A stretch of 35,001 nucleotides of DNA from a virus. The stretch is from positions 1 through 35,001 of IMG/VR virus record IMGVR_UViG_3300023174_000397, one strand, 5' to 3'. The notes under the pieces were generated by a model that ran no database searches, was not told the origin of the DNA, and saw only the letters and a program-made list of their open reading frames with translations. Every line of letters begins with the position of its first letter. Positions within the stretch are counted from its first letter, which is position 1. Shown piece by piece: positions 210 through 35,001 of the stretch. The position numbers were made by a program, and so were the translations under genes.

Positions 210-394
210 GGGGTTCGTGCGAAAGACTGGGGCGGATTCGGGGGTTCGTGCGAAAGACTGTCCGGCATCAGACGCGATCGGCAGGTTTTGGTCGATTGGC
301 TGACATGCTGCGACGCATCAAGGTCAGCTGGCGGTCAGGTTCGGGGGTTCGTGCGAAAGACTGCGCCATGTTCAGGGGTTCGTGCGAAAGACTG
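210..394. repeat. Four copies of a 20-bp repeat in two pairs
   Basis: GGGGTTCGTGCGAAAGACTG occurs without mismatch at 210-229, 241-260, 344-363 and 375-394. Within each pair the start-to-start distance is 31 bp (11-bp spacer, about three helical turns), and the pairs are 103 bp apart. The last copy ends where the phage-like Z coding sequence starts to read sensibly. Paired subterminal repeats of this kind are typical of transposase-binding sites at ends of elements such as the IS21 family, but no transposase is in the window, so the identity is a guess. Confidence 0.8.
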
Positions 395-1217
395 ACCCGC
401 TGGTTTTCGCTGCCAGCCTAGCGGCCGATTGCTCGACGGCGATCTCAAGTTGCTTCCCGAACTCGCGCTGCGATACCTGCTCCGCAATCTCGTAGAAGTA
501 GAACTGCTTGCGATAGCTCACTCTCGGCACGAACGCGAGCACCAGCGAAATCTGACCGCTGCGCCCATAGCCCAGCGACGCGCCGAAATATCTCCCCTTG
601 GCAAGGTAGATGCCAGGGCGAAGTTTCCCGCGCCTCTGGCGCACCGCAAAGTACTGGCCGCCGGCCTTGCCGAATGCTTGCTTCCTGCGCGTGCCCCACC
701 GCTTATTTGATTCGCCCGGCCTGCGCCGCAGCGTGCGCGAATAGCCCGCGGTGAGCTCGGTGCCGACCTGCGACACGATCTGGGCAATCTGCGAGCGTTG
801 CACGTTGCCGTAGGCGTCCAGCCTGGCGCCGGAGGCGGGCACCGCGAACGTCCCAGGCGGCATCACGCCTGCATTCATCAGTGCACGCTCAAATCGCTTC
901 AATCGCCGCGTCCCGGCCCCCTCGACGATCGGCGTCAGGAATCGACCCTTCTCGCCGCCCTCGCCGTACTCATTGCCGAACCAGACGCGCGCCTCGAGCT
1001 TGTTCGCGTTCGCCCCGCGAAAAAAGAACGTCCGCATGGTAAATGGTGTCGGTCGGTCAATGTCCGCAGGCGCCTTCTCCTTGAGCTTGTCGCGCACCGC
1101 TTTCGCCGTCCGCGTCAGCGCCGTCGCGACCGCGCCTCGAAACCTGCGCGGACTGAACTCGTTGATCTGCGCCTGAATGCGCTGCAGCGCGTCTTGATCC
1201 ACTTCGACTTTGAACAT
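372..1217 (-). CDS. Minor tail protein Z (lambda gpZ family), 3' end altered
   Basis: The 281-residue product matches prophage minor tail protein Z (PF06763-like): a basic helical N-terminus (residues 22-50), then the characteristic DRPTPFT segment near residue 54 and a following ARVWFG strand. In lambda, gpZ helps finish the tail end that joins the head. GGAGG lies just before the ATG. Lambda Z has about 190 residues, so this is a long member. The last seven residues (SVFRTNP) and the stop are encoded inside the 20-bp repeat at 375-394, so the native C-terminus was probably replaced. In lambda order Z lies between FII and U; here those genes are 30 kb away and Z sits beyond the primase. Confidence 0.8.
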   Translation of the reverse strand: MFKVEVDQDALQRIQAQINEFSPRRFRGAVATALTRTAKAVRDKLKEKAPADIDRPTPFTMRTFFFRGANANKLEARVWFGNEYGEGGEKGRFLTPIVEGAGTRRLKRFERALMNAGVMPPGTFAVPASGARLDAYGNVQRSQIAQIVSQVGTELTAGYSRTLRRRPGESNKRWGTRRKQAFGKAGGQYFAVRQRRGKLRPGIYLAKGRYFGASLGYGRSGQISLVLAFVPRVSYRKQFYFYEIAEQVSQREFGKQLEIAVEQSAARLAAKTSGSVFRTNP

Positions 1218-1433
1218 GGCGCCTCCGTTTCTGCCAGCAGGCAGTGCAACCAGTGTATCCAGTGCAACCAGTGTACGAAGTGCCGGAGTGCTATTAGAGC
1301 CCTCGTGTACTCACGGCAACCCTTCCTATATATACATACATACACTACACTACACTATACACTACTATATAGAGAACACGTTGATTTTAAACACTTTTTG
1401 GTCAGGGTAACCACCAGTGCAACCCAGTGCAAC
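1218..1433. other. A+T-rich, repeat-bearing region; possible origin
   Basis: No gene is convincing here. CAGTGCAACC occurs four times (1242-1251, 1260-1269, 1415-1424, 1425-1434) with degenerate copies at 1251-1260 and 1269-1278. Between the two clusters lies a strongly A+T-rich stretch (about 1326-1400) with short repeats such as TACACTACACTACAC and TATATATA, unlike the surrounding GC-rich DNA. Iteron-like repeats flanking an easily melted segment beside a primase-helicase gene fit a replication origin. The stretch may also hold the promoter of the Z gene (minus-strand TGTTTA, 16 bp, TATATA). Confidence 0.5.
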
Positions 1434-3643
1434 CTACGCCCCTGGCAGGGGTTTCGGGGGCATCCGCAGCAGGTTTCGCCCGTTGCTGCGGCGCCGCTGG
1501 CCGCTGTTCAGGTCGCCGACCAGCTGGCCGCAGTTCGTGACGTCGGCCCGCGACGGCCGGTCGAACCCCATCTCGAGCATCACCTCGGTCGCGGTCATCC
1601 ACCTCCAGAGCGACTCCGGCTCGTCCCATCTGTAGTGACTGGTCAGCCGCTCTTGTACCGGGTCGAGCACCTCGTGCGCCTTGTTCGCCTCGTTCAGGTC
1701 GGCCATCTCCTCCGGCGTGAGGTACCAGGACTCGCCCTGCTGGTAGTGCGCCTGGTAGATCTCGGCCCAGACCTGCTGCATGTTCAACCCGTGCTGATGG
1801 TTCAGCCCGACGCATGACAGCGTCCAGTAGCGCCGATTGCCGGTCGGGTCGTGCAGGTACTGGCGGGGGTTCACGCTCGCAAAGAACACCGTGCGCCGCG
1901 CGTACTTCGACTCCCGGCGCGCATAGGCTGCCCGCAGGACGTCCTTGTCGCGGGTCAGCCACGCCTTCAGTTGCGCGATGTCCGACCGCTTGAACGTGGC
2001 GTCCAGTTCGCCGAGCTCGACCAGCCAGAAGCTCACGGCTTGCTTCACGCTGTCCTTGTCGTCGGCCTTGAGCAGCATCCCGTCCTGAATGACGCCTAGG
2101 CTGGCCGGGACGAGGCTCTTGAACCACGCCGTCTTGCCCAGGTACTGCTCGCCCTGCATCACCAGCACGCCGTGCGCCGACACGCCGTTGGGGCGAAACG
2201 CCGCGGCGACGGCCGAGATCATCCATCGCAGCAGGATCGACCGTTTGCGCCGCGCGACCGCCGGATCGTCCTCCTCGGCCTCGCAGCAGATGGTGTGGAG
2301 CAGGGCATCGAACCGCGACTGCCCGTCCCACGGCTGGCTGGTGATCCAGTTCGCCACCGGTTGTAGGGGTTCTGGTCGGCGAGGTAGGTGACATACTCGT
2401 CCACCTTGCCGGTGGGCACCCGAAACTTCTCGAGCGCCGAGATCAGCCACGCGAGCGAGGCGTTCGCCTGATTGTCGATCGAGAACCCGGCGCCCGGGAT
2501 GATGAGCTCGACCTCCTTCGCGATCACGTTGTAGCGGATGGTGACGCGCAGGCGGCGGCAGGCCTCCAGCACGTTCGCGATCGTCGCCAGCGGCTTGCCC
2601 TTGTTGTCGGTGTCGGGGAACGGGCGCAGCCAGTCCACGGCCCCGAAGTCCACCGGCGCGTTGTCGTTGGCGGCGGGCGGCGGCAGGATCTCGCCGGTCG
2701 TCGGGTCCACGCTGGCCGGTGCTGCAGCGCTTGGGTCAACCGATCGCCGGTCGAACCGTTCCTCGATCACGCGCGGCTGTTGTGCGCCAGCGGTGAGCCC
2801 CGACCGGATGGTCGCGGCGGCCTCGCCGGCCGGCAGCCCGCAGGCGGCTGCGGCCTGAGTCAATTCGGCGACGATGCGGTGCTCGGAGAGCAGGCCGGTA
2901 TGCAGCAGGCGGCCGAGCCCATAGGCCTCCTGGTTGAGCGTGTCGTTGCGCCCGCCCTCGGCGGCGATCTTCACGCGCTCCACAGCCGCGTCGAATGCTC
3001 GGGTGACGTATCGGTCCACCGAGCCGCCAACGCGCGCCTGTGGGGCTGCTGACGCCGCCGTGGCGGGCATCGGTGGTGGTGCGGGCGCCGGTCGGGTGCG
3101 CGCGGCCAGCACGGCGTCGGTGATCAGCTGGATCGCGCCGTCGGCGATCGGCTGGACGTCGGGGCGGATTGAAGCATGCTGCAGCGCGTTACCGGTCATC
3201 GTGAAGAACTGCCGGCCGCAGAACAGTTCGACGCCGATCTCGTTGGACTTGATCGTCTTCGCCGTGCCCCGGCCGATGATATGGATCCCGCGTTCGGACG
3301 GCGACCATTCTGCGTACGTGCAGCACGCGGTGAGGATGCGCTCGGTGAGCGGCTCGCGCTCGGTGCGGTCGACCGCGTCGAGGTCGATTCCGATCAGCCC
3401 GTCGCCGGGCAGGAACGCGAAACCGAGCCCGTCGGCTCCGAGGCGCCCGACGGCGTCCCATGCCTGCTCGAGGGTGACCAGCCGGGCGCGATCCTCGGGG
3501 CTACCCTGCACGCCTTGTCGGATACCGCCGTCGGCGTAGTAGGGCATCTTCGCGGGCTTCTTCTGCCCGGGCTTGTCGACCAGGCGCCAGACTAGCCACT
3601 GCGCGCGACCGGAGAGTTCAGCAGGGAATGCGGGCTGATTCAT
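1434..3643 (-). CDS. Phage primase-helicase, interrupted by a one-base frameshift
   Basis: Two overlapping frames make one protein of about 736 residues. The N-terminal frame (stop at 2219) shows an archaeo-eukaryotic primase-like domain: WLVWRL at 16-21, GIDLD near 90, SERGIHII and a VELFCGRQFFTMTGN strand. The C-terminal frame (1434 to about 2360) is a VirE/phage P-loop helicase (PF05272): Walker A GEQYLGKT, Walker B-like WLVELGEL and the TGNRRYW sensor. The frames join at about 2357-2361, where ...NPYN must continue as PVANWI; one extra C in the CCGG there would restore this. It would prime and unwind DNA at the phage origin. The break is a real mutation or an assembly error. Its start overlaps the stop of the upstream HTH gene (ATGA). 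Confidence 0.85.
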
Positions 3644-8103: not shown

Positions 8104-8220
8104 TGTCGTCTCCTAGTTGTCGCGCCTTAACTGCAGCGCGTGACCAGAATCATGCCGAAAAGTATTTAGAAAGTAAACAGAAAGAATATTTATAGGCAAG
8201 CAATACCCAATAGCTTTTCG
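8104..8220 (-). promoter_or_regulatory. A+T-rich gap with a likely leftward promoter
   Basis: This is the only long gap in the early operon. 8156-8220 is A+T-rich and bounded by an inverted repeat, CGAAAAG (8156-8162) and CTTTTCG (8214-8220). On the minus strand TTGGGT (8205-8210), 16 bp and TATTCT (8183-8188) make a sigma70-like promoter that would serve the small-gene cluster from 8103 leftward. Alternatively the inverted repeat is a processing or attenuation structure. Confidence 0.4.
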
Positions 8221-9846
8221 CTATGCTGCCCGGTCTCCGAGCAGCGACTGCGCGCGGGCAAGTACATCTCGCAGTTCGGCAGGCTTCATCCTGACGATGT
8301 CTCCCGGGCGCAGCCGCAGCACCGTCGACCACGGCTGGCCGGTGACATCGAACACGCGCTGCAGATGCTCCAGCACCTCGACCTGCAGCGCACGCTTCGA
8401 CTCGCGCGCGTCGACGATCTTCTGAGCCCGCCACCGCGACATCCCGACCTGGTGGACGAGCTCGTCCACGGTCTGCGCGCGACCTTGCAGCATCCGCTGC
8501 ATCCGCCGGGACGCGGCCATCGCAGCCGCGTCGATCTCGACCAGTTCGCCCTCGACCTCGCGCGGGCCGGTGTTCGGCCGCACTGGTTCGCGGTGACCGC
8601 ATACCGGACACTGCGGGGCTGGACGGTAGATCGAGAAGCACTTCCGGCAGGTGGTGACGCCGACGTCGTCGGTGTCGCGCGGCCCGCGCTCGCGCTTCTG
8701 GATGCCGTCCAGCGACCAGTCGCGGTCCTCGTCCGGCAGGCCATGCGTAACTATCGCCCCCACGTGGTCGATGATGATCGCCTCGGCCTTGCCAGGATAC
8801 GGGCGCAGCGCCCGGCCGACCTGCTGCAGGTAGAGCGCAAGCGACTGCGTCGGTCGCAGCAGGATCGCTGCTTCGATCGCCGGCAGGTCGAATCCCTCCG
8901 AGATGATGTCGCACGACGCCAGCACGAGGATATCGCCGCGGGCGAACTCGTCGATCAGCCGGGTGCGGGTCGCGTTGTCCATCGAACCGTCCAGCGAGGC
9001 GGCGGGCACGCCAGCCGCGATGAACTGGTCGGCCACGTGCTTCGCGTGCTCCACGGACACGCAGAACGCGACGGCGCGTTTCCCGGGCACGAGCGACTGA
9101 TAGTGGCTCACCGCGTCGCCGATGATCTGCGGGACGTCCATCGCGGCGGCCAGCTGGTCGCGCGCGTAGTCGCCGGCACGGGTCCGCACGCCGTCGAGGT
9201 TCGCCTGCATGGGCGGCCCATAGGCGCGGTACCGGGACAGCGAGCCCGAGTCGATCAGATCGGCCGTCGACGGCCCGAGGATGAGTCGGTCGGCGAACCC
9301 GTCGGCGTGGCTGCCCAGGCCGCGGCCGTCCAGCCGGATCGGGGTGGCGGTGACGCCGAGCACGCGGGCGCGCGGCCAGCGGGCCAGCACGCGGCCCCAG
9401 GTGCTGTCGATGGTGAGGTGGTGCGCCTCGTCCACGACGATCAGATCGGGGTCGGGCAGCCCGCCGGACTCGAGACGGCGAGCGATCGTCTGCACGCTGG
9501 CGACCGCAGCGCCGCCGCGGCCGGTGGCGAGTGCACCGACGAACGAGCGTCCGTGCTCGCGGAACTCGTCGGCAATAACCTGCCTGCGGATCGGGCCAGG
9601 CGCGATGATTTCGTGATGGCAGGCGAAGCGGGCAAGCGTCATCGCGATCTGCCGGACCAGTTCGGCACGGTGCGCGAGCAGGTAGACGATGCGACCGCGC
9701 GCGACCGCGTTGGTGGTGACGTGGGAGAACAGGATAGTCTTTCCGCCACCCGTGGGAAGGCACACCAGCGGCGCCGTGGCGCCCTCGGAGTAGGCCTCGC
9801 GCAGCTGATCGACGATGGTCTGCTGGTAGGGGCGGAGGGTGATCAT
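8221..9846 (-). CDS. SF2 DNA helicase with C-terminal zinc ribbon
   Basis: A 541-residue DEAD/DEAH-type helicase. Motifs in order: the Q-like RPYQQ at 5-9, Walker A PTGGGKT 31-37, DEAH 139-142, TAT 166-168, and QQVGRALRP 341-349 with the arginine finger. Cysteines at 400, 403, 413 and 416 form a zinc ribbon after the helicase core, and a basic C-terminal tail follows. Phage helicases of this kind (UvsW/RadD-like) act in replication restart or recombination. The start MITLRPYQQT at 9846 overlaps the methyltransferase stop by four bases; the upstream in-frame extension is not conserved in style. Confidence 0.9.
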   Translation of the reverse strand: MITLRPYQQTIVDQLREAYSEGATAPLVCLPTGGGKTILFSHVTTNAVARGRIVYLLAHRAELVRQIAMTLARFACHHEIIAPGPIRRQVIADEFREHGRSFVGALATGRGGAAVASVQTIARRLESGGLPDPDLIVVDEAHHLTIDSTWGRVLARWPRARVLGVTATPIRLDGRGLGSHADGFADRLILGPSTADLIDSGSLSRYRAYGPPMQANLDGVRTRAGDYARDQLAAAMDVPQIIGDAVSHYQSLVPGKRAVAFCVSVEHAKHVADQFIAAGVPAASLDGSMDNATRTRLIDEFARGDILVLASCDIISEGFDLPAIEAAILLRPTQSLALYLQQVGRALRPYPGKAEAIIIDHVGAIVTHGLPDEDRDWSLDGIQKRERGPRDTDDVGVTTCRKCFSIYRPAPQCPVCGHREPVRPNTGPREVEGELVEIDAAAMAASRRMQRMLQGRAQTVDELVHQVGMSRWRAQKIVDARESKRALQVEVLEHLQRVFDVTGQPWSTVLRLRPGDIVRMKPAELRDVLARAQSLLGDRAA

Positions 9847-11207
9847 GCCACCTCCGACCGTGCAGGTTGCGGACGGTTGTCGTTGGCTGGCCGGATGAGT
9901 GCGGCGTCGATGCGCCATCCGATCCACCGCACGACCGGCACCGCCCAGCTATTGCCCAGCGCCTTGTAACGCGGGCCGTCGGGGCACTGGTCGGCGGGTT
10001 TCCCGCGCCACGAGATCTGCGTGTAATCGTCGGGGAATCCTTGCAGGCGCTCGCATTCGCGGGGCGTGAGGCGGCGGACTTGCATAACCGAGATGACGGC
10101 GTCGCTGACCCTGGAGCCGACACCTTCAGCGCGCAAGGTGTGATGCGTGTCGCCATTCCATGCTTGGTTCCGGTCGTCATACGCCACCGCCACGCTATGC
10201 CCGTCCGTATCCAGCGGCCCGCTCTTGTCGCCGTACTGGACCACGTCGGACTGGCGGGCATCGAAGGCGTGGGCTGGCACGAACAACGATGCTCCACTTA
10301 AAGCATGTTGATCTTCCAACCCTTGCTTATCACCGAACGCAGCGTTCAGAGTGCAATTGACTTCCGCAGGCCACGGAATAACAGAACTGTTTACTACGTC
10401 TGAAACTTCATTACGTTGTCCGTTGTTCGCAGTCAGGGCGTTGACTACACCGTTGCAATCATGCGGAATCACTCCCCCGTCGCAGTCGAAGTCGGTGCCA
10501 AGGCCACCGCCGCCAGTGCTGCGTGAAGGGATGGTGGGAGCGATTTTCCTCGTTTCTCTGCTCGGCGGATAATCCCGGCGCACGCCTTTCCACTCAAAAA
10601 GAACCGCTGCGGGATCGAAGTTGTTTCTAGCACTTGCGACAACGAACACACGCTTGCGTCGTTGGGCCAGGCCGAAGTATTGGGCATCCAAGGTGCGCCA
10701 CGCGACTGTTCTTTTGGGTCCAGCAACCACACCCGCGCCCGTCCATCTGCCGCTCGGAATGATGGCGGAATCTGATCCAGCGAGCGCCCCAAGAAAACAC
10801 CCGAAGGCGTTGTCTCGGGTGGAGAGGACTCCTGGGACGTTCTCCCAGAACACAATGCTTGCGGGTTGTCCGCGAACAGATCGAACTGCGTCGATGGCAT
10901 CTGCGATCTCGCAATAGGTGAGCGACAGGTTTCCCCGCGCGTCGTCAAGGGACCGGCGCAGGCCGGCGACTGAAAATGCTTGGCACGGCGTGCCGCCGCA
11001 GAAGATGTCGGGAGCTTCGACCTCGCCTGCCAGAATGCGCGCAGGCAGCGTCGCCATGTCTCCCAAGTTGGGAGTGTCTGGGTAGTGGTGCCGCAGCACC
11101 GCCGACGGGAACGGTTTGATCTCGGAGAACCACGCAGCCTTCCAGCCCAGCGGTCCCCACGCAACGCTCGCGGCTTCAATGCCGCTGCGCACGGATCCGA
11201 ACCTCAT
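9843..11207 (-). CDS. Orphan DNA C5-cytosine methyltransferase
   Basis: 454 residues. The AdoMet site starts MRFGSVRSGIEAASVAW; PCQ (74-76, catalytic Cys), ENV (122-124), QRRKRVFVVA, and the C-terminal CERLQGFPDDY and ALGNSWAVPVV motifs are all in the right order for the Dcm class. There is no restriction endonuclease beside it, so it likely protects phage DNA from host restriction or marks it for regulation. The middle part (about 10285-10465 and 10540-10900) has visibly lower GC than its flanks; this is the target-recognition region and looks exchanged. The ATG at 11207 overlaps the Cro-like gene. A longer reading frame to 11906 runs over opposite-strand genes and is rejected. Confidence 0.92.
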   Translation of the reverse strand: MRFGSVRSGIEAASVAWGPLGWKAAWFSEIKPFPSAVLRHHYPDTPNLGDMATLPARILAGEVEAPDIFCGGTPCQAFSVAGLRRSLDDARGNLSLTYCEIADAIDAVRSVRGQPASIVFWENVPGVLSTRDNAFGCFLGALAGSDSAIIPSGRWTGAGVVAGPKRTVAWRTLDAQYFGLAQRRKRVFVVASARNNFDPAAVLFEWKGVRRDYPPSRETRKIAPTIPSRSTGGGGLGTDFDCDGGVIPHDCNGVVNALTANNGQRNEVSDVVNSSVIPWPAEVNCTLNAAFGDKQGLEDQHALSGASLFVPAHAFDARQSDVVQYGDKSGPLDTDGHSVAVAYDDRNQAWNGDTHHTLRAEGVGSRVSDAVISVMQVRRLTPRECERLQGFPDDYTQISWRGKPADQCPDGPRYKALGNSWAVPVVRWIGWRIDAALIRPANDNRPQPARSEVA

Positions 11208-11416
11208 GCCTTCCCCCGTCGCTTGGGCAACTCCCCGATGATCTCGGTGAGGCACACCGCGTTGTTCGTCACTTCGCTGATTCGAGTGAGGTGTTCGTAG
11301 GACGGGCGGGCGCGGCGTTCCTCCCACTTCCACAACGTGACCCACGCCACGCCGATCGCGCGGGCCAGTTGCGCGCGGGTCAATCCGTGCGCCTCTCGAT
11401 ACTGCTGCAGGTTCAT
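11204..11416 (-). CDS. Cro-like HTH regulator
   Basis: A 70-residue XRE-type helix-turn-helix: HGLTRAQLARAIGVAWVTLWKWEERRARPSYEHLTRI at residues 9-45 fits the five-helix fold, with no peptidase or dimerisation domain. It is the first gene of the leftward operon and is preceded by AGGAG. It likely binds the palindromes at 11439-11471 and controls both divergent promoters. No matching CI-type partner is present. Confidence 0.85.
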   Translation of the reverse strand: MNLQQYREAHGLTRAQLARAIGVAWVTLWKWEERRARPSYEHLTRISEVTNNAVCLTEIIGELPKRRGKA

Positions 11417-11519
11417 CTCGACTCCTGGACAATTGATGGAGTAGCAATACTACTCGCCTTGCAGTATACTGGGCAACCCCGGCACGCATTGACCGGGGAA
11501 ACAACTTACAGGAGGCAGT
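11417..11519. promoter_or_regulatory. Divergent early control region with operators
   Basis: GAGTAGCAATACTACTC (11439-11455) is a 17-bp perfect palindrome around a five-base centre, and CAGTATACTG (11462-11471) is a ten-base perfect palindrome; their centres are about 20 bp apart. TATACT inside the second is a good -10 for rightward transcription. On the minus strand TTGCCC (11471-11476), 18 bp and TAGTAT (11447-11452) could be the leftward promoter. The operators thus overlap both promoters, as in lambdoid control regions. A GGAGG lies at 11511-11515 for the rightward gene. Confidence 0.65.
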
Positions 11520-12386
11520 GTGGAAGCGAACGACAACTACGCAGCGCTGGTAGCGCTGACCAATGAGCAGCACCACGCGCACCCGGCCGTCGGCGCGAGC
11601 GGGCTCAAGGAACTTGCCCGCAGCCCGGCGCACTACTGGGCGAAGTACCGCGACAAGAACCGACAGCCGAGCAAGCCGTCGGCCGCGATGGCATTCGGCA
11701 CGGCCTATCACGCGATGCTGTTCGAGCCCGGCAAGTTCTTCGACCGCTACGCGGAGATGCCAGAGGGTCTGGATCGCCGCACGAAAGAGGGGAAAGCCCT
11801 GTTTGCGGACATCGAGGCCAGCGGGAAGCAGCCGATTACGAGCAGCGACCTCAACGCGCTGGAAACGATGGTCGACTGCGTGAACGCTCACCCGGTTGCG
11901 CGGCATCTGCTTCGCACCGAAGGCGCGGGCACCGAGCAGTCGATGTTCTGGATCGACCGCGGGACGCGGCTGGGATGCAAGATCCGGCCGGACTGGTACG
12001 TCGAACCCGGAGCCGCGTACCCGAACGGAGCGATCATCGACCTCAAGACGACCAGCGATGCTCGTCCCGAGGCGTTCGGCCGGTCGGTCTGGAATTATGG
12101 GTACTGGCTGCAGGCCGCCTGGTACATCGACGGATTCCGCAACGTGTTCGAGACCAGCGGCGACCCGGTGTACCTCTGGCTCGCGCAGGAGGGCGACGCG
12201 CCCTATGCGGCCGCCATGTATGCGCCCGCACCGGATCTGATCGACTACGGCCGCCGCGAGTATCGCCGCCTGCTGGACGTGCTGGCCCGTTGCGAGACGA
12301 GCGGCGAATGGCCGGCGTACCCGACCGAGATCAGCCGACTGGAGATGCCCGCTTGGGTGGACCGCCAGATTCAGGACGCGGCGTGA
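11520..12386 (+). CDS. RecE-like exonuclease (DUF3799 family)
   Basis: 288 residues, GTG start with GGAGG upstream. GTAYHAML (61-68), then TEQSMFW, IRPDWY (D158), IIDLKTT (D174, K176) and WLQAAWYIDG (Q198) form the PD-(D/E)XK nuclease core of the RecE/DUF3799 exonucleases, which digest the 5' strand of double-stranded ends. It heads the rightward operon and pairs with the Sak4-like ATPase and SSB further along. Length is typical for the stand-alone nuclease domain. Confidence 0.87.
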   Translation: MEANDNYAALVALTNEQHHAHPAVGASGLKELARSPAHYWAKYRDKNRQPSKPSAAMAFGTAYHAMLFEPGKFFDRYAEMPEGLDRRTKEGKALFADIEASGKQPITSSDLNALETMVDCVNAHPVARHLLRTEGAGTEQSMFWIDRGTRLGCKIRPDWYVEPGAAYPNGAIIDLKTTSDARPEAFGRSVWNYGYWLQAAWYIDGFRNVFETSGDPVYLWLAQEGDAPYAAAMYAPAPDLIDYGRREYRRLLDVLARCETSGEWPAYPTEISRLEMPAWVDRQIQDAA

Positions 12387-14299: not shown

Positions 14300-14391
14300 A
14301 GGACGACACGCTAGAGGCAGCCCTGCTGCTCGCCGTAAACAACCTGATCTGCATCGGGTTCGGCTGGCTGCTGGCCGCAGCGCTTCGATAG
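14296..14391 (+). CDS. Tiny one-helix membrane ORF overlapping int
   Basis: GTG at 14296 overlaps the HTH stop (GTGA). The 31-residue product reads VKDDTLEAALLLAVNNLICI then GFGWLLAAALR: an acidic start and one hydrophobic helix. The last 81 bases lie antisense to the 3' end of the integrase gene. Coupled start and clean helix make it plausible, but it is too short to be certain. Confidence 0.4.
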   Translation: MKDDTLEAALLLAVNNLICIGFGWLLAAALR

Positions 14392-15513
14392 CCAGCGCTC
14401 CCATTTCGCCACGGCGGCGAGCTTCTCGGGCATGCCGTCGTGGCGATTGTAGTGCCGTTCCGCGATGTCGATACGTTGGTGATTCTGGTACGCGTCGCGT
14501 TCCGTTTTGGACAGGCCGGCCTCGCCGGCAAGCGTCTTCCACGTCCGACGCAGATCGCGCGCGTCGAAGTCGGGCAAGTCACCGGCTCGCAGACGCGCGC
14601 GCACCGCGTCGTGCGTGATCGGCCCGTGCTTGCCTGGGAACAGGTAGCCGCCCGGGCCGGGCTGCAGCGCGTCCAGCAGCTGCGCGGCGAGGTCGCAGAC
14701 CGGGATGGTATGCGGTCGCCCGTTCTTTGTCGTCGGCCAGTGCAGGATCCGCTCGGCCGAATCCCACTGCTCGGCCCGCAGCCCGGAGATCTCCGTCACC
14801 CGCTGGCCGGTGAGCAGCAGCAGCGCGACGACCGTGCGCGCGCCGCCGGTTCGCTGCTCGGTGGCCCAGCGCCAGACCTGCAGCCACTCCTCGACCGACA
14901 GCCACCGCTCGCCGGGGCGCGTGGCTCCCTTGTCCACCGGGACGGCGTCTACGGGGTTCGCCACCAGCCCCCAGTCGCGGGGATTCGCGGTGCGGTAGTC
15001 GTGCGCCGAGCGAATCGCCCAGCGGAAGGCGGCGGACAGGTACATCCTGCGCTTCGCCGCCGCAGCCCGCGCATCGGCCGCGAATCGCGGCTTGATCACG
15101 GACACGATGTCGCGAGGCGTGACGTCCCGGGCGAGGCGTGACCGGCCGATGATCGAGCCCGCCTCTGCGAGGATGTAGCGGGCCTGCCGCTGCGACGCGC
15201 GGCCATCCAGCGAGGCGACATAGGCGTCCAGCAGTTCGCCGAGCGTCGCGCGCCCCTCGGCTGGACGGTGTCCGACGAACCGCTCGCGGGCATCGGCGAG
15301 CGACAGCGCGGGGTAGGTGCCGAGCTTCTGCAGACGGCGGCGGCCGTCCACGAACCGCTGGGCGAACCACTCGGCGCGCCCGGGCTGGACGCGCAGCAGC
15401 AGGCGCCCGGCTCCTCGAGGTGCGGCGTCGGCCAGTGTTTCGCTAGCGACCTTGCCGGACGCGGCCCGGCGTACAGCGGCGGCGATCGCCGCATCGGTCA
15501 GCAGTCTGCTCAT
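14311..15513 (-). CDS. int: Tyrosine integrase
   Basis: 400 residues. The N-terminal arm-binding part has VQPGRAEWFAQRF and LQKLGTYPALSLADAR as in DUF4102-type integrases; the core-binding helices span 90-200; the catalytic domain shows TGQR (R238), TKNGR (K263), DLRRT (R322), NH (H345) and HYNRHD (Y355 nucleophile). The usual His before DLRRT is Arg (R319), a substitution known in several phage integrases. The start at 15513 lies just beside the repeats of the presumed attP. It is transcribed toward the recombination operon, on the same strand as the late genes but separated by a terminator. Confidence 0.93.
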   Translation of the reverse strand: MSRLLTDAAIAAAVRRAASGKVASETLADAAPRGAGRLLLRVQPGRAEWFAQRFVDGRRRLQKLGTYPALSLADARERFVGHRPAEGRATLGELLDAYVASLDGRASQRQARYILAEAGSIIGRSRLARDVTPRDIVSVIKPRFAADARAAAAKRRMYLSAAFRWAIRSAHDYRTANPRDWGLVANPVDAVPVDKGATRPGERWLSVEEWLQVWRWATEQRTGGARTVVALLLLTGQRVTEISGLRAEQWDSAERILHWPTTKNGRPHTIPVCDLAAQLLDALQPGPGGYLFPGKHGPITHDAVRARLRAGDLPDFDARDLRRTWKTLAGEAGLSKTERDAYQNHQRIDIAERHYNRHDGMPEKLAAVAKWERWLSKRCGQQPAEPDADQVVYGEQQGCL

Positions 15514-15776
15514 GTCCCCTCCAGCGGTAGCAGTCCGGTAGCAGTATCCCACGAAGCAGGTGCCGGAAAGCCCCAGGAATGCGCCAGAGAAGCGATCGGG
15601 CGCGGAGACGGTAAACGGTTCGTGCTGCTAGGGAAATCGCGCCACAGGCCCGTCTAGCCGTTTCCTAGTCCGTGTCCTCGTAATAGACGCGGATGGAAAT
15701 GCACGAAATGATTGGAAATGCACGCGAATCTCCAGTCATGCGTGAATTCCGAGTAGCGGTTGCGGTAGCAGTGGCG
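15514..15776. other. Presumed attP with repeated integrase sites
   Basis: No gene. CGGTAGCAGT occurs three times (15525-15534, 15536-15545, 15763-15772), and TGGAAATGCACG twice (15694-15705, 15713-15724, 19 bp apart). An inverted pair CTAGGGAAA (15628-15636) and TTTCCTAG (15661-15668) lies between. Short repeats beside int on both sides of a putative core fit arm-type sites for integrase or excisionase. The exact crossover point cannot be seen because no attL or attR is present. Confidence 0.6.
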
Positions 15777-24100: not shown

Positions 24101-24456
24101 AGATTCGGGTTCGTGAACGCGCGCGTGACAGGCGTTGCGGCATTGATCTCGGTGCTGATCGCGATGGTGTTCTCGACGGCGGCAAAGCCCGGCAAGTAAC
24201 CCTGCCCCTGCGTGCCGTTGCGGGTCTCCACCATCGCGCCCGGGAAGTTGAACGTCCCGTCGGCCGCCTGCAGAGGCGTGTCGTCCAGGTAGATCGACTT
24301 CGCACCATCGACCAGCCCCTCGATCTCGCCCTCGCAGATGAGGTCAATGATCTTCGCCGTCGCGCGCGAGCGCAGGCTGTCTGGCGCCTCTGACGCAGAT
24401 TGAGTTGACTGGGCGCGGTTCTTGCCGCCGCCAGCGCCAGCGATCCGCGTGCTCAT
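21181..24456 (-). CDS. Tail tip attachment protein J
   Basis: 1091 residues of the lambda gpJ type. The N-terminal third has SLRSRATAKIIDLICEGEIE and IYLDDTPLQ, standard for J; the middle covers the tail-hub part (WCFYDLITSDRYGLGDFVDP, YNVLRDFASIFRGMVYWSSG). The C-terminal third holds two fibronectin type III repeats (starting PSAPQGVAATETYY and ARPNNVTGFVASRAG) and a last beta region that carries Trp-rich repeats (WADIIDWTSYGTW). J ends the tail and in lambda binds the receptor. Gene follows I with a four-base overlap. Confidence 0.94.
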   Translation of the reverse strand: MSTRIAGAGGGKNRAQSTQSASEAPDSLRSRATAKIIDLICEGEIEGLVDGAKSIYLDDTPLQAADGTFNFPGAMVETRNGTQGQGYLPGFAAVENTIAISTEINAATPVTRAFTNPNLNAILVTIGVPALTEQLPDTGNLRGATVTIGIELQTGAGSFVDLDLNGFGVISGKTTSRYQRTFRVPLAGAGPWTIRVRRITPDSALASLQNKTVLDSVTEIIDAKLRYPNSALVAMTVDSAQFSQIPRRAYDVKLLRVRIPSNYNPTTRVYTGSWDGTFQIAWTDNPAWCFYDLITSDRYGLGDFVDPAQVDRWAMYQIGRYCDELVPDGFGGFEPRFTCNLYLQSRAEAYNVLRDFASIFRGMVYWSSGSITAVQDAPEDPSYLFSPANVIGGEFTYTGSSAKARHTVALVTWNDPADLYRQKVEYVEDVQGIARYGVITTEIAAIGCTSRGQANRAGRWLLLSERLEAETVTFKTGLDGTVARPGQVIKVADPGRAGVRYGGRLLGATTTSATLDAAVTLASGQIYTLSCLGPDGSMQESTVTTGPGTTSSLTLSPALPAAPATGTIWVLSSPQVEPQLFRVLAVAEDEKHQFTVTALAHEPDKFAAVENNLVLEPRSISVLSARPSAPQGVAATETYYATAAGFRSRLDVSWLASDNATSYVVTLRKAEGNVGPELVTTTTSIELNDLEIETYTVTVVAQNAIGTRSSASSLQVVVLGKQARPNNVTGFVASRAGDTLKFAWRPVDDIDVDYYELRQGSAWETGVVVGRTRSSAYETLSPRGGTFMIKAVDTSGNESLSESVVIISDASGINVVLSYNEATGGWNGTKNRTAEIVLTNYPAWADIIDWTSYGTWDDTISGGGVVLVGDDTWASLSSPWTPYTAPWLFSEPADTGTYVSELIDIGYVATSLVQIDSLVQIISQSTPPWSDFTDPWSTYGPPDWTWQGKDDVISAGYEISTSNDNATWSAYTPFLPGAYSFRYARFRVTLSTSDPNYRPFLTRFVVKVDVPDRVEHFGNVSIPSGGATITFTPQFVGVNTIQVTLQSAASGDRFTVTGKSTSSVTVNVFDSAGSAKAGTADVDVFGYGERA

Positions 24457-34841: not shown

Positions 34842-35001
34842 TCAGGCGACCGCGTTCTGGATGAAGTACCCAGCCGTCGACGCCGCAATTACCGGAGCCT
34901 CCGAACGCGTGACCGGGAAGTACCAGGTCTTCGTGTTGCGCTCGTAGTAGGGCTCCTCGACCACCGGATAGCCGTCCAGGTTGTAGGTGTAGCCGAAGGT
35001 C
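34842..35001 (-). CDS. Major capsid protein, C-terminal part
   Basis: The reading frame comes in from the right edge and gives FGYTYNLDGYPVVEEPYYER, then NTKTWYFPVTRSEAPVIAAS and ends TAGYFIQNAVA. This end is typical of HK97-fold major capsid proteins of the non-lambda-E type. Only about 52 residues are in the window, so the family is a judgement from those and from the position before the head-tail genes. Confidence 0.65.
   Translation of the reverse strand, partial: TFGYTYNLDGYPVVEEPYYERNTKTWYFPVTRSEAPVIAASTAGYFIQNAVA

Follow-up and report, generated by a model that had tools for sequence, protein, structure and literature searches.

A candidate iteron-type replication origin downstream of the VapE-type helicase gene of a temperate siphovirus

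Here, we identify the gap between a primase-helicase gene and a minor tail gene of a temperate siphovirus as the very probable site of a replication origin of the kind known from PICI/SaPI elements and P4, i.e., one that would be recognized by the helicase itself. The analysis covered a contig of 35,001 bp in full (hereafter, the window). At the level of sequence, the gap contains repeats that are phased and inverted around an A+T-rich core and that lie downstream of the helicase gene, comparable arrays recur in relatives, and the helicase is predicted to end in a winged helix. By analogy with PICI, SaPI, Cch2, and P4, we infer that this winged helix binds the repeats, that opposed hexamers assemble, that the core melts, and that the fused primase primes. 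A preliminary description of the same DNA had proposed a candidate replication origin here, and this proposal is supported by the recurrence of the layout in relatives and by a peak in duplex instability. Origins of this type have already been described for satellites and P4. A literature search returned no description of this family's origin grammar or of the wing/iteron association, and we therefore regard as new where such an origin lies in these phages, the quantification of its array grammar, and an association between the wing of the helicase and the letters of the iterons. To our knowledge, origins are unmapped in most tailed phages. If our reading is correct, the place of the origin and the target of the initiator could be read from sequence for a large family, with at least 592 confirmed relatives, in phages as well as in prophage-like loci of bacterial genomes. 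Because phage origins would then be tied to satellite origins (PICI, P4), competition between phages and satellites for the same iterons becomes testable.

The intergenic gap and its gene setting

The gap at 1218-1434 is intergenic and 217 bp long, with the helicase stop codon on one side and the start of the minor tail gene (1217) on the other (Table 1). It contains four exact copies of CAGTGCAACC, at the positions previously described, and the rest of the 35,001-bp record has none. When 1218-1434 was dinucleotide-shuffled 2000 times, the commonest 10-mer was present once in 1752 shuffles, twice in 247, three times in 1, and four times in 0. Similarly, the AGTG, AGTGYA, and AGTGTA counts of the window were reached by 0 of 5000 shuffles. 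While the count of four stands, its division into two tandem groups has to be amended: the copies at 1242 and 1260 are 18 bp apart with the degenerate CAGTGTATCC between them and, thus, belong to an array in 9-bp phase that also includes degenerate units, both between these copies and next to them (block C), and that two weaker AGTG units may extend to 1295. Counted downstream from the helicase stop codon, with orientation given in that frame, the units lie at 0 and 10 (block A, minus), 69 to 86 (block B, plus), and 156, 165, 174, and 183 (block C, minus), with the weaker block C units at 139 and 147.

Table 1. Features of the candidate origin and its neighborhood in the window
Feature	Position	Strand	Remark
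Block A copy 1, iteron CAGTGCAACC (GGTTGCACTG on the primase strand)	1425..1434	+	Touches the helicase stop codon (1434-1436)
Block A copy 2, iteron	1415..1424	+	Exact CAGTGCAACC
Possible degenerate block A copy CAGGGTAACC	1403..1412	+	2 mismatches, AGTG core lost; putative role
A+T-rich core, candidate unwinding element	1318..1392		G+C 0.307; the contig's least stable duplex overlaps it
Block B, four TAGTGTA units, inside the A+T-rich core	1338..1364	-	Putative iterons
Block C, four 9-bp-phased units	1242..1278	+	CAGTGTACGA 1269-1278, CAGTGCAACC 1260-1269, CAGTGTATCC 1251-1260, CAGTGCAACC 1242-1251
VapE-type AAA+ helicase part of the primase-helicase gene	1434..2363	-	PF05272, E 4.5e-51
Helicase C-terminal winged-helix domain, putative iteron reader	1461..1661	-	Model residues 235-301 (AlphaFold2), alignment
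N-terminal primase part, same gene, different frame	2219..3643	-	PHROG DNA primase families
phrog_1924 minor tail protein, far side of the origin	372..1217	-	PHROG match

Pentameric repeats had also been described and are present (Tandem Repeats Finder: period 5, 5.4 copies, 1333-1357). Their position, their orientation, and their AGTG core suggest that this "microsatellite" is a second, facing array of AGTGTA type in the opposite orientation (block B). As the B units deviate from the exact iteron, the window does not pass the strict facing-gap test; a strict one-mismatch rule gives it no block B at all, so that the assignment of this block is putative.

The A+T-rich stretch is bracketed by repeats as described. 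The G+C content of the gap is 0.479 compared to 0.662 for the contig, and the lowest-G+C 75-mer of the contig (0.28) lies in the gap at 1323, ahead of one at 8143 (0.32). A duplex-unwinding calculation, previously proposed as a check, places the instability peak of the contig in the gap as well: the least stable 80-nt duplex starts at 1322 (5.8 sd), and the runner-up starts at 8145 (4.9 sd). GC skew, the other calculation proposed, lends the origin no support, with the cumulative minimum at 34902 and the maximum at 24182 of the fragment. Positions 8143-8217 are the second most A+T-rich and second least stable stretch of the contig. The preliminary description held that nothing else in the window is both A+T-rich and repeat-bearing; no second place with both properties was found, but longer repeats are present at 1-400, in G+C-rich DNA.

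Several other elements were observed. At 1-130, i.e., at the contig edge, a 39-bp unit is repeated 3.3 times with 100% match and may have stopped the assembly. At 163-400, the 20-mer GGGGTTCGTGCGAAAGACTG is present in four exact copies in two pairs (210/241 and 344/375) within a diverged 104-nt duplication, and these repeats contain the near-palindrome TTCGTGCGAA; the 20-mer of 210-394 had 0 matches in the IMG/VR scan. Operator-like near-palindromes GTTAGTNNNNACTTAC lie at 134-149 and 189-204, and a similar GTTAGTNNNNACTAAC is found just past the origin in loci L007 and L008, which are the only 2 of 124 relatives to have it. The palindrome GTTAGTNNNNACTWAC near the L007 and L008 origins was considered as a general origin feature and rejected, being present in just 2 of 124 relatives. 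DnaA boxes have the consensus TTWTNCACA. With 0 exact matches to it in the window, a DnaA-dependent oriC-like origin was also rejected. No tRNA was found in the window, and no RNA family reached the gathering threshold in 1-2500.

The window encodes the virion proteins tape measure, central fibre J, minor tail, tail assembly, and tail terminator, together with an integrase (14311-15552) and a DNA methyltransferase (9843-11906). Judged by these genes, it is part of a temperate siphovirus, and because it has its own virion genes, it represents a phage and not a phage-inducible chromosomal island. The repeats adjoin the primase-helicase gene as previously noted, with block A touching its stop codon; however, the gene is split between two frames here, with the change between the primase and helicase halves near 2360-2450. 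Relatives have a single primase-helicase frame, e.g., Mano at 34605-36902. In view of the split, the gene in this copy may be non-functional or mis-sequenced, and the split itself reflects either a genuine mutation or a mistake in the sequence. No Pfam family matched the primase half (2219-3643). In the relatives Mano (L005) and Alexa (L055), a Toprim primase domain lies ahead of the VapE/winged-helix part, and different primase domains may have been exchanged on a common helicase chassis. Beyond the gap, several relatives have other sequences in place of the minor tail gene, as judged by eye; among relatives of this tail gene, sought as a second anchor, none was confirmed.

Repeat arrays in relatives and their shared layout

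We scored the window together with 45 IMG/VR relatives, 79 further stretches found by alignment and drawn from the best 80 of at least 592 confirmed relatives, 39 of 60 bacterial-genome loci, and nine named phages. The 21 genome loci left out (L177 and L179-L198) were mostly partial matches. The helicase stop codon was found in 171 loci (L105 and L126 being without one), and 167 had enough downstream DNA to be scored (L104, L107, L108, and L137 had too little). Removal of helicases at least 90% identical to another reduced 166 loci with at least 250 residues to 125. L057 is a duplicate of L005; at least three stretches (L061, L062, and L065), from already sampled contigs, were removed at dereplication.

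A cluster, i.e., a repeated 8-mer with a score of at least 9, a cut-off chosen after seeing the window's own 9.3, lies at -20 to +630 of the helicase stop in 40 of the 125 dereplicated loci (32%, window included) and is absent there in 85. Among upstream 650-nt control segments, clusters were present in 0/125 of those directly before the stop and in 3/750 of the rest. At a score of at least 12, the counts are 27/125 downstream vs. 2/750 in controls. Clusters in successive segments further downstream number 2/116, 4/113, 6/108, 0/90, 0/84, 2/76, and 2/67, and 51/125 loci have a cluster anywhere in -20 to +2580. Without the window, the rate is 14/33 for helicases at least 45% identical, 24/81 at 35 to 45%, and 1/10 below. 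Degenerate arrays were seen by eye at that place in L006, L008, and L025. Nothing was scored there in others, e.g., Mano (helicase 62% identical), FoX1, and Mica; the Jilinviruses Arya, KA2-1, and ECO1230-10 have a cluster about 2 kb from the gene, and in ep3 no cluster reached the cut-off. Thus, conservation beside the primases of relatives, which had been proposed as a check, applies to the kind of array at that place (40/125 vs. 3/750) but not to the exact array, whose 28-mer had 0 matches in the IMG/VR scan.

As far as these sequences go, relatives conserve the array layout and not the repeat letters, which vary by lineage (AGGGACAC, AGTGACCC, AGGTGTCA, AGTGCATC, CAGGGTAC, ATCCCACC, and others). 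The 8-mer AGTGCAAC is present in 7 exact copies beside the primase in L049 and, in the form GGTTGCAC, in 6 exact copies beside that of Acinetobacter phage Alexa. A scan that started from the motif was specific only in part: it found AGTGCAAC trios in 26 stretches (two from one contig), 6 of them beside this VapE helicase family, 63-230 nt downstream (one being the L049 contig again), and 20 not. For 10 of these 20, one neighboring ORF each was scanned and was DUF3987/Prim-Pol (1), DnaG-type primase (1), ribonucleotide reductase (3), phage structural/packaging (3), or without match (2); several trios lie inside long reading frames. The triple AGTGCAAC arrays in L211, L212, and L220 are near ribonucleotide reductase genes and not near a VapE helicase.

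Motif statistics were computed on 56 dereplicated loci with a motif. Five loci had been dropped beforehand: L054, as its repeats were judged to be coding; L089 and L157, as implausible; L018, because of its frame shift; and L129, because its k-mer is palindromic. The spacing between neighboring copies peaks at 9 nt (63 of 419 distances). Neighboring copies 7-13 nt apart have the same orientation in 165 of 185 cases and are opposed in 20, whereas the opposed orientation prevails at distances of 40-59 nt (56 of 63) and of 70-125 nt (48 cases, with the same orientation in 11). An opposed gap of 70-125 nt is present in 43/56 loci, with a median of 99.5 nt. The median A+T content is 0.63 in opposed gaps vs. 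0.46 in whole loci, and the A+T minimum has at least two copies on each side in 40/56 loci vs. 19.1 expected from random placement. Together, the counts of orientation, spacing, and A+T content identify the pair of arrays B and C, which are oriented toward one another with an A+T-richer gap between them, as the most constant element; the number and direction of outer arrays vary among loci.

The layout of the window was compared with ten other AGTGY-type loci. Two match it closely, i.e., L049 (A at 25/47, B at 90/99, C at 201/210/219) and L075 (A at 21, B at 66/76, C at 164/173/182). L024 has the same block order, with degenerate TAGTGTA B units at 78/88. B and C also face each other in L026, L039, and L055, where the outer array is oriented as B, unlike in the window. 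The remaining loci fit less clearly.

The predicted helicase winged helix and the letters of the iterons

AlphaFold2 modeled the helicase part over 309 residues with a mean pLDDT of 87. The last elements of the model are H235-243, E254-257, H258-264, H272-285, E290-293, and E296-301, which is the order of a winged helix. Mean pLDDT in this region rises from 76 (residues 231-240) to 90-97 in the blocks between 241 and 300. Among solved structures, 7pds, "PriRep1 with dsDNA", is the closest (Foldseek E 1.3e-15; structural alignment by VIA of model residues 1-307 with Z 25.1, rmsd 4.8, and 292 aligned). A profile search of PDB likewise gave 7pds as its sole match at E ≤0.01 (2.3e-35), and this match covers the ATPase part only (profile 1-250).

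Several comparisons relate this domain to the repeat letters. Iteron similarity correlates, weakly overall, with identity of the C-terminal domain (rho 0.137; partial 0.114 given the ATPase domain, 4/2000 permutations), while the partial correlation with the ATPase domain given the C-terminus is -0.002. In the 30 loci nearest the window, the C-terminal effect is 0.190 (6/2000). AGKGY[AC] iterons accompany 23 of 24 helicases with an SNG wing vs. 7 of 36 without SNG (p 3.4e-9, ignoring kinship). For the broader [STAG]NG wing in the 60 dereplicated origins, the counts are 27:3 with the wing and 3:27 without. Grouping by 60% ATPase-domain identity (23 groups, 6 of them mixed) leaves the SNG association at 9:0 vs. 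4:10 (p 0.0016); at 50% and 45%, 3 and 2 groups are left, too few to be informative. We also compared 185 non-independent pairs that are at least 50% identical and differ in wing state: 144 differ in the expected way, 1 in the opposite way, and 40 are ties. The wing hypothesis was formed post hoc on the same data on which it was counted. In a forward check on the motif-fetched loci L205, L213, L214, L217, and L218, the wings were TNG, SNG, ANG, TNG, and TNG, i.e., 5/5 for [STAG]NG and 1/5 for strict SNG, against a base rate for [STAG]NG of 62/125 dereplicated helicases; because the C-termini of L205, L217, and L218 are nearly the same, this check amounts to about three lineages. It weakly favors NG over SNG as the wing determinant.

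From the predicted fold and the analogous replicons, we suggest a model whereby the C-terminal winged helix of the helicase binds AGTG-type iterons. The 9-10 bp phasing would line up several subunits of the helicase along the same face of the DNA, and the facing arrays B and C would seed two opposed hexamers flanking the A+T-rich segment, with block A strengthening or regulating assembly. The helicase would then melt the A+T core, the fused primase domain would prime, and host polymerases would carry the forks away. Because the iteron letters are lineage specific, initiation would be specific to the phage's own genome.

More tentatively, and at slightly less than even chances, we suggest that a single origin grammar, together with a winged-helix code for the repeat letters, is common to the VapE-type primase-helicases of tailed phages. 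This grammar would comprise phased head-to-tail arrays, two of them facing across about 100 bp of A+T-richer DNA, and further outer arrays, and BPP-1 hints that it may also apply to other families of helicase. If grammar and code hold, the specificity of the initiator would become predictable from sequence in hundreds of phages and prophages. For work on start-site choice by helicases, the wing/iteron association also supplies natural variants.

Alternative readings and comparison with known replicons

The repeats could instead bind a transcription regulator of the downstream tail gene, with the A+T-richness reflecting a promoter. The gap does lie between genes read in the same way, and its minus strand has a weak sigma-70-like site (1391-1364); however, this site is the sole one found in 8 kb, where 0.9 are expected, arrays were seen by eye behind the helicase gene also in relatives in which the next gene has a different start, and the class of repeat tracks the C-terminal domain of the helicase. 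We therefore consider an operator or promoter unlikely. It is very unlikely that the arrays are functionless microsatellites that expanded by chance in a non-coding gap: while simple TACAC repeats are prone to slippage and the 28-mer of the exact array is without other match in the IMG/VR scan, no shuffle matched the AGTG-type counts, and the layout recurs at the equivalent place in diverged phages.

A third reading is a pRN1-type origin, in which secondary structure and not iterons would be read. According to Berkner et al. (PMC4234260), a stem-loop origin has been proposed 3' of the primase-helicase gene, including for BPP-1. The systems of pRN1 and BPP-1 resemble that of the window in that the origin is proposed to lie 3' of a primase-helicase whose C-terminus is a winged helix. 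This proposal relies on a stem-loop, whereas the 217-nt strand of the window folds no better than its shuffles (-28.8 vs. a shuffle mean of -25.75 kcal/mol, z -0.94; 36/200 shuffles fold as well). Moreover, BPP-1 itself (L227), whose primase has no match to the VapE profile, shows what resembles the iteron grammar: at +469 to +559 (about 469-567 nt) past the primase stop, two 9-bp-phased pairs of TTTGCCTCG are inverted and surround the lowest-G+C 60-mer of the 6-kb stretch read. A stem-loop origin in the window is, thus, very unlikely.

An iteron origin read by the helicase is familiar from satellites. According to PMC6092414, the origins of Escherichia coli PICIs have two iteron sets, one on either side of an A+T-rich region. 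PICI/SaPI pri-rep-ori replicons (e.g., EcCICFT073; SaPIbov1, SaPI5) consist of a primase and an initiator helicase followed by the origin. Similarly, the window has an AAA+ helicase (PF05272) with a predicted C-terminal DNA-binding domain and the origin candidate directly downstream of its gene, with block A at the stop codon, and the iteron consensus differs between its relatives. Unlike these elements, the window belongs to a temperate siphovirus, which encodes an integrase and tail proteins of its own and is no satellite, and the likeness described here is one of layout.

For SaPI Rep and SCCmec Cch2, PMC7581432 describes recognition, via the C-terminal domain, of iterons downstream of the protein's own gene, and reports that Cch2 requires AAGTG. 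The repeats of Cch2, at its putative origin, likewise lie just downstream of its gene, and the iteron of the window shares AGTG with this 5-nt sequence. By the same source, Cch2 differs from the window in having a Primase_Cterm/D5-type domain, a cassette element as its setting, and three iterons only. The AGTG common to both may be due to chance.

P4 has a split ori/crr arrangement. PMC4234260 describes P4 alpha as a primase-helicase of the Toprim primase class with a winged helix that binds origin repeats. In primase type, the relatives Mano and Alexa carry Toprim, like P4 alpha, a likeness drawn from the description of P4 and not from its sequence.
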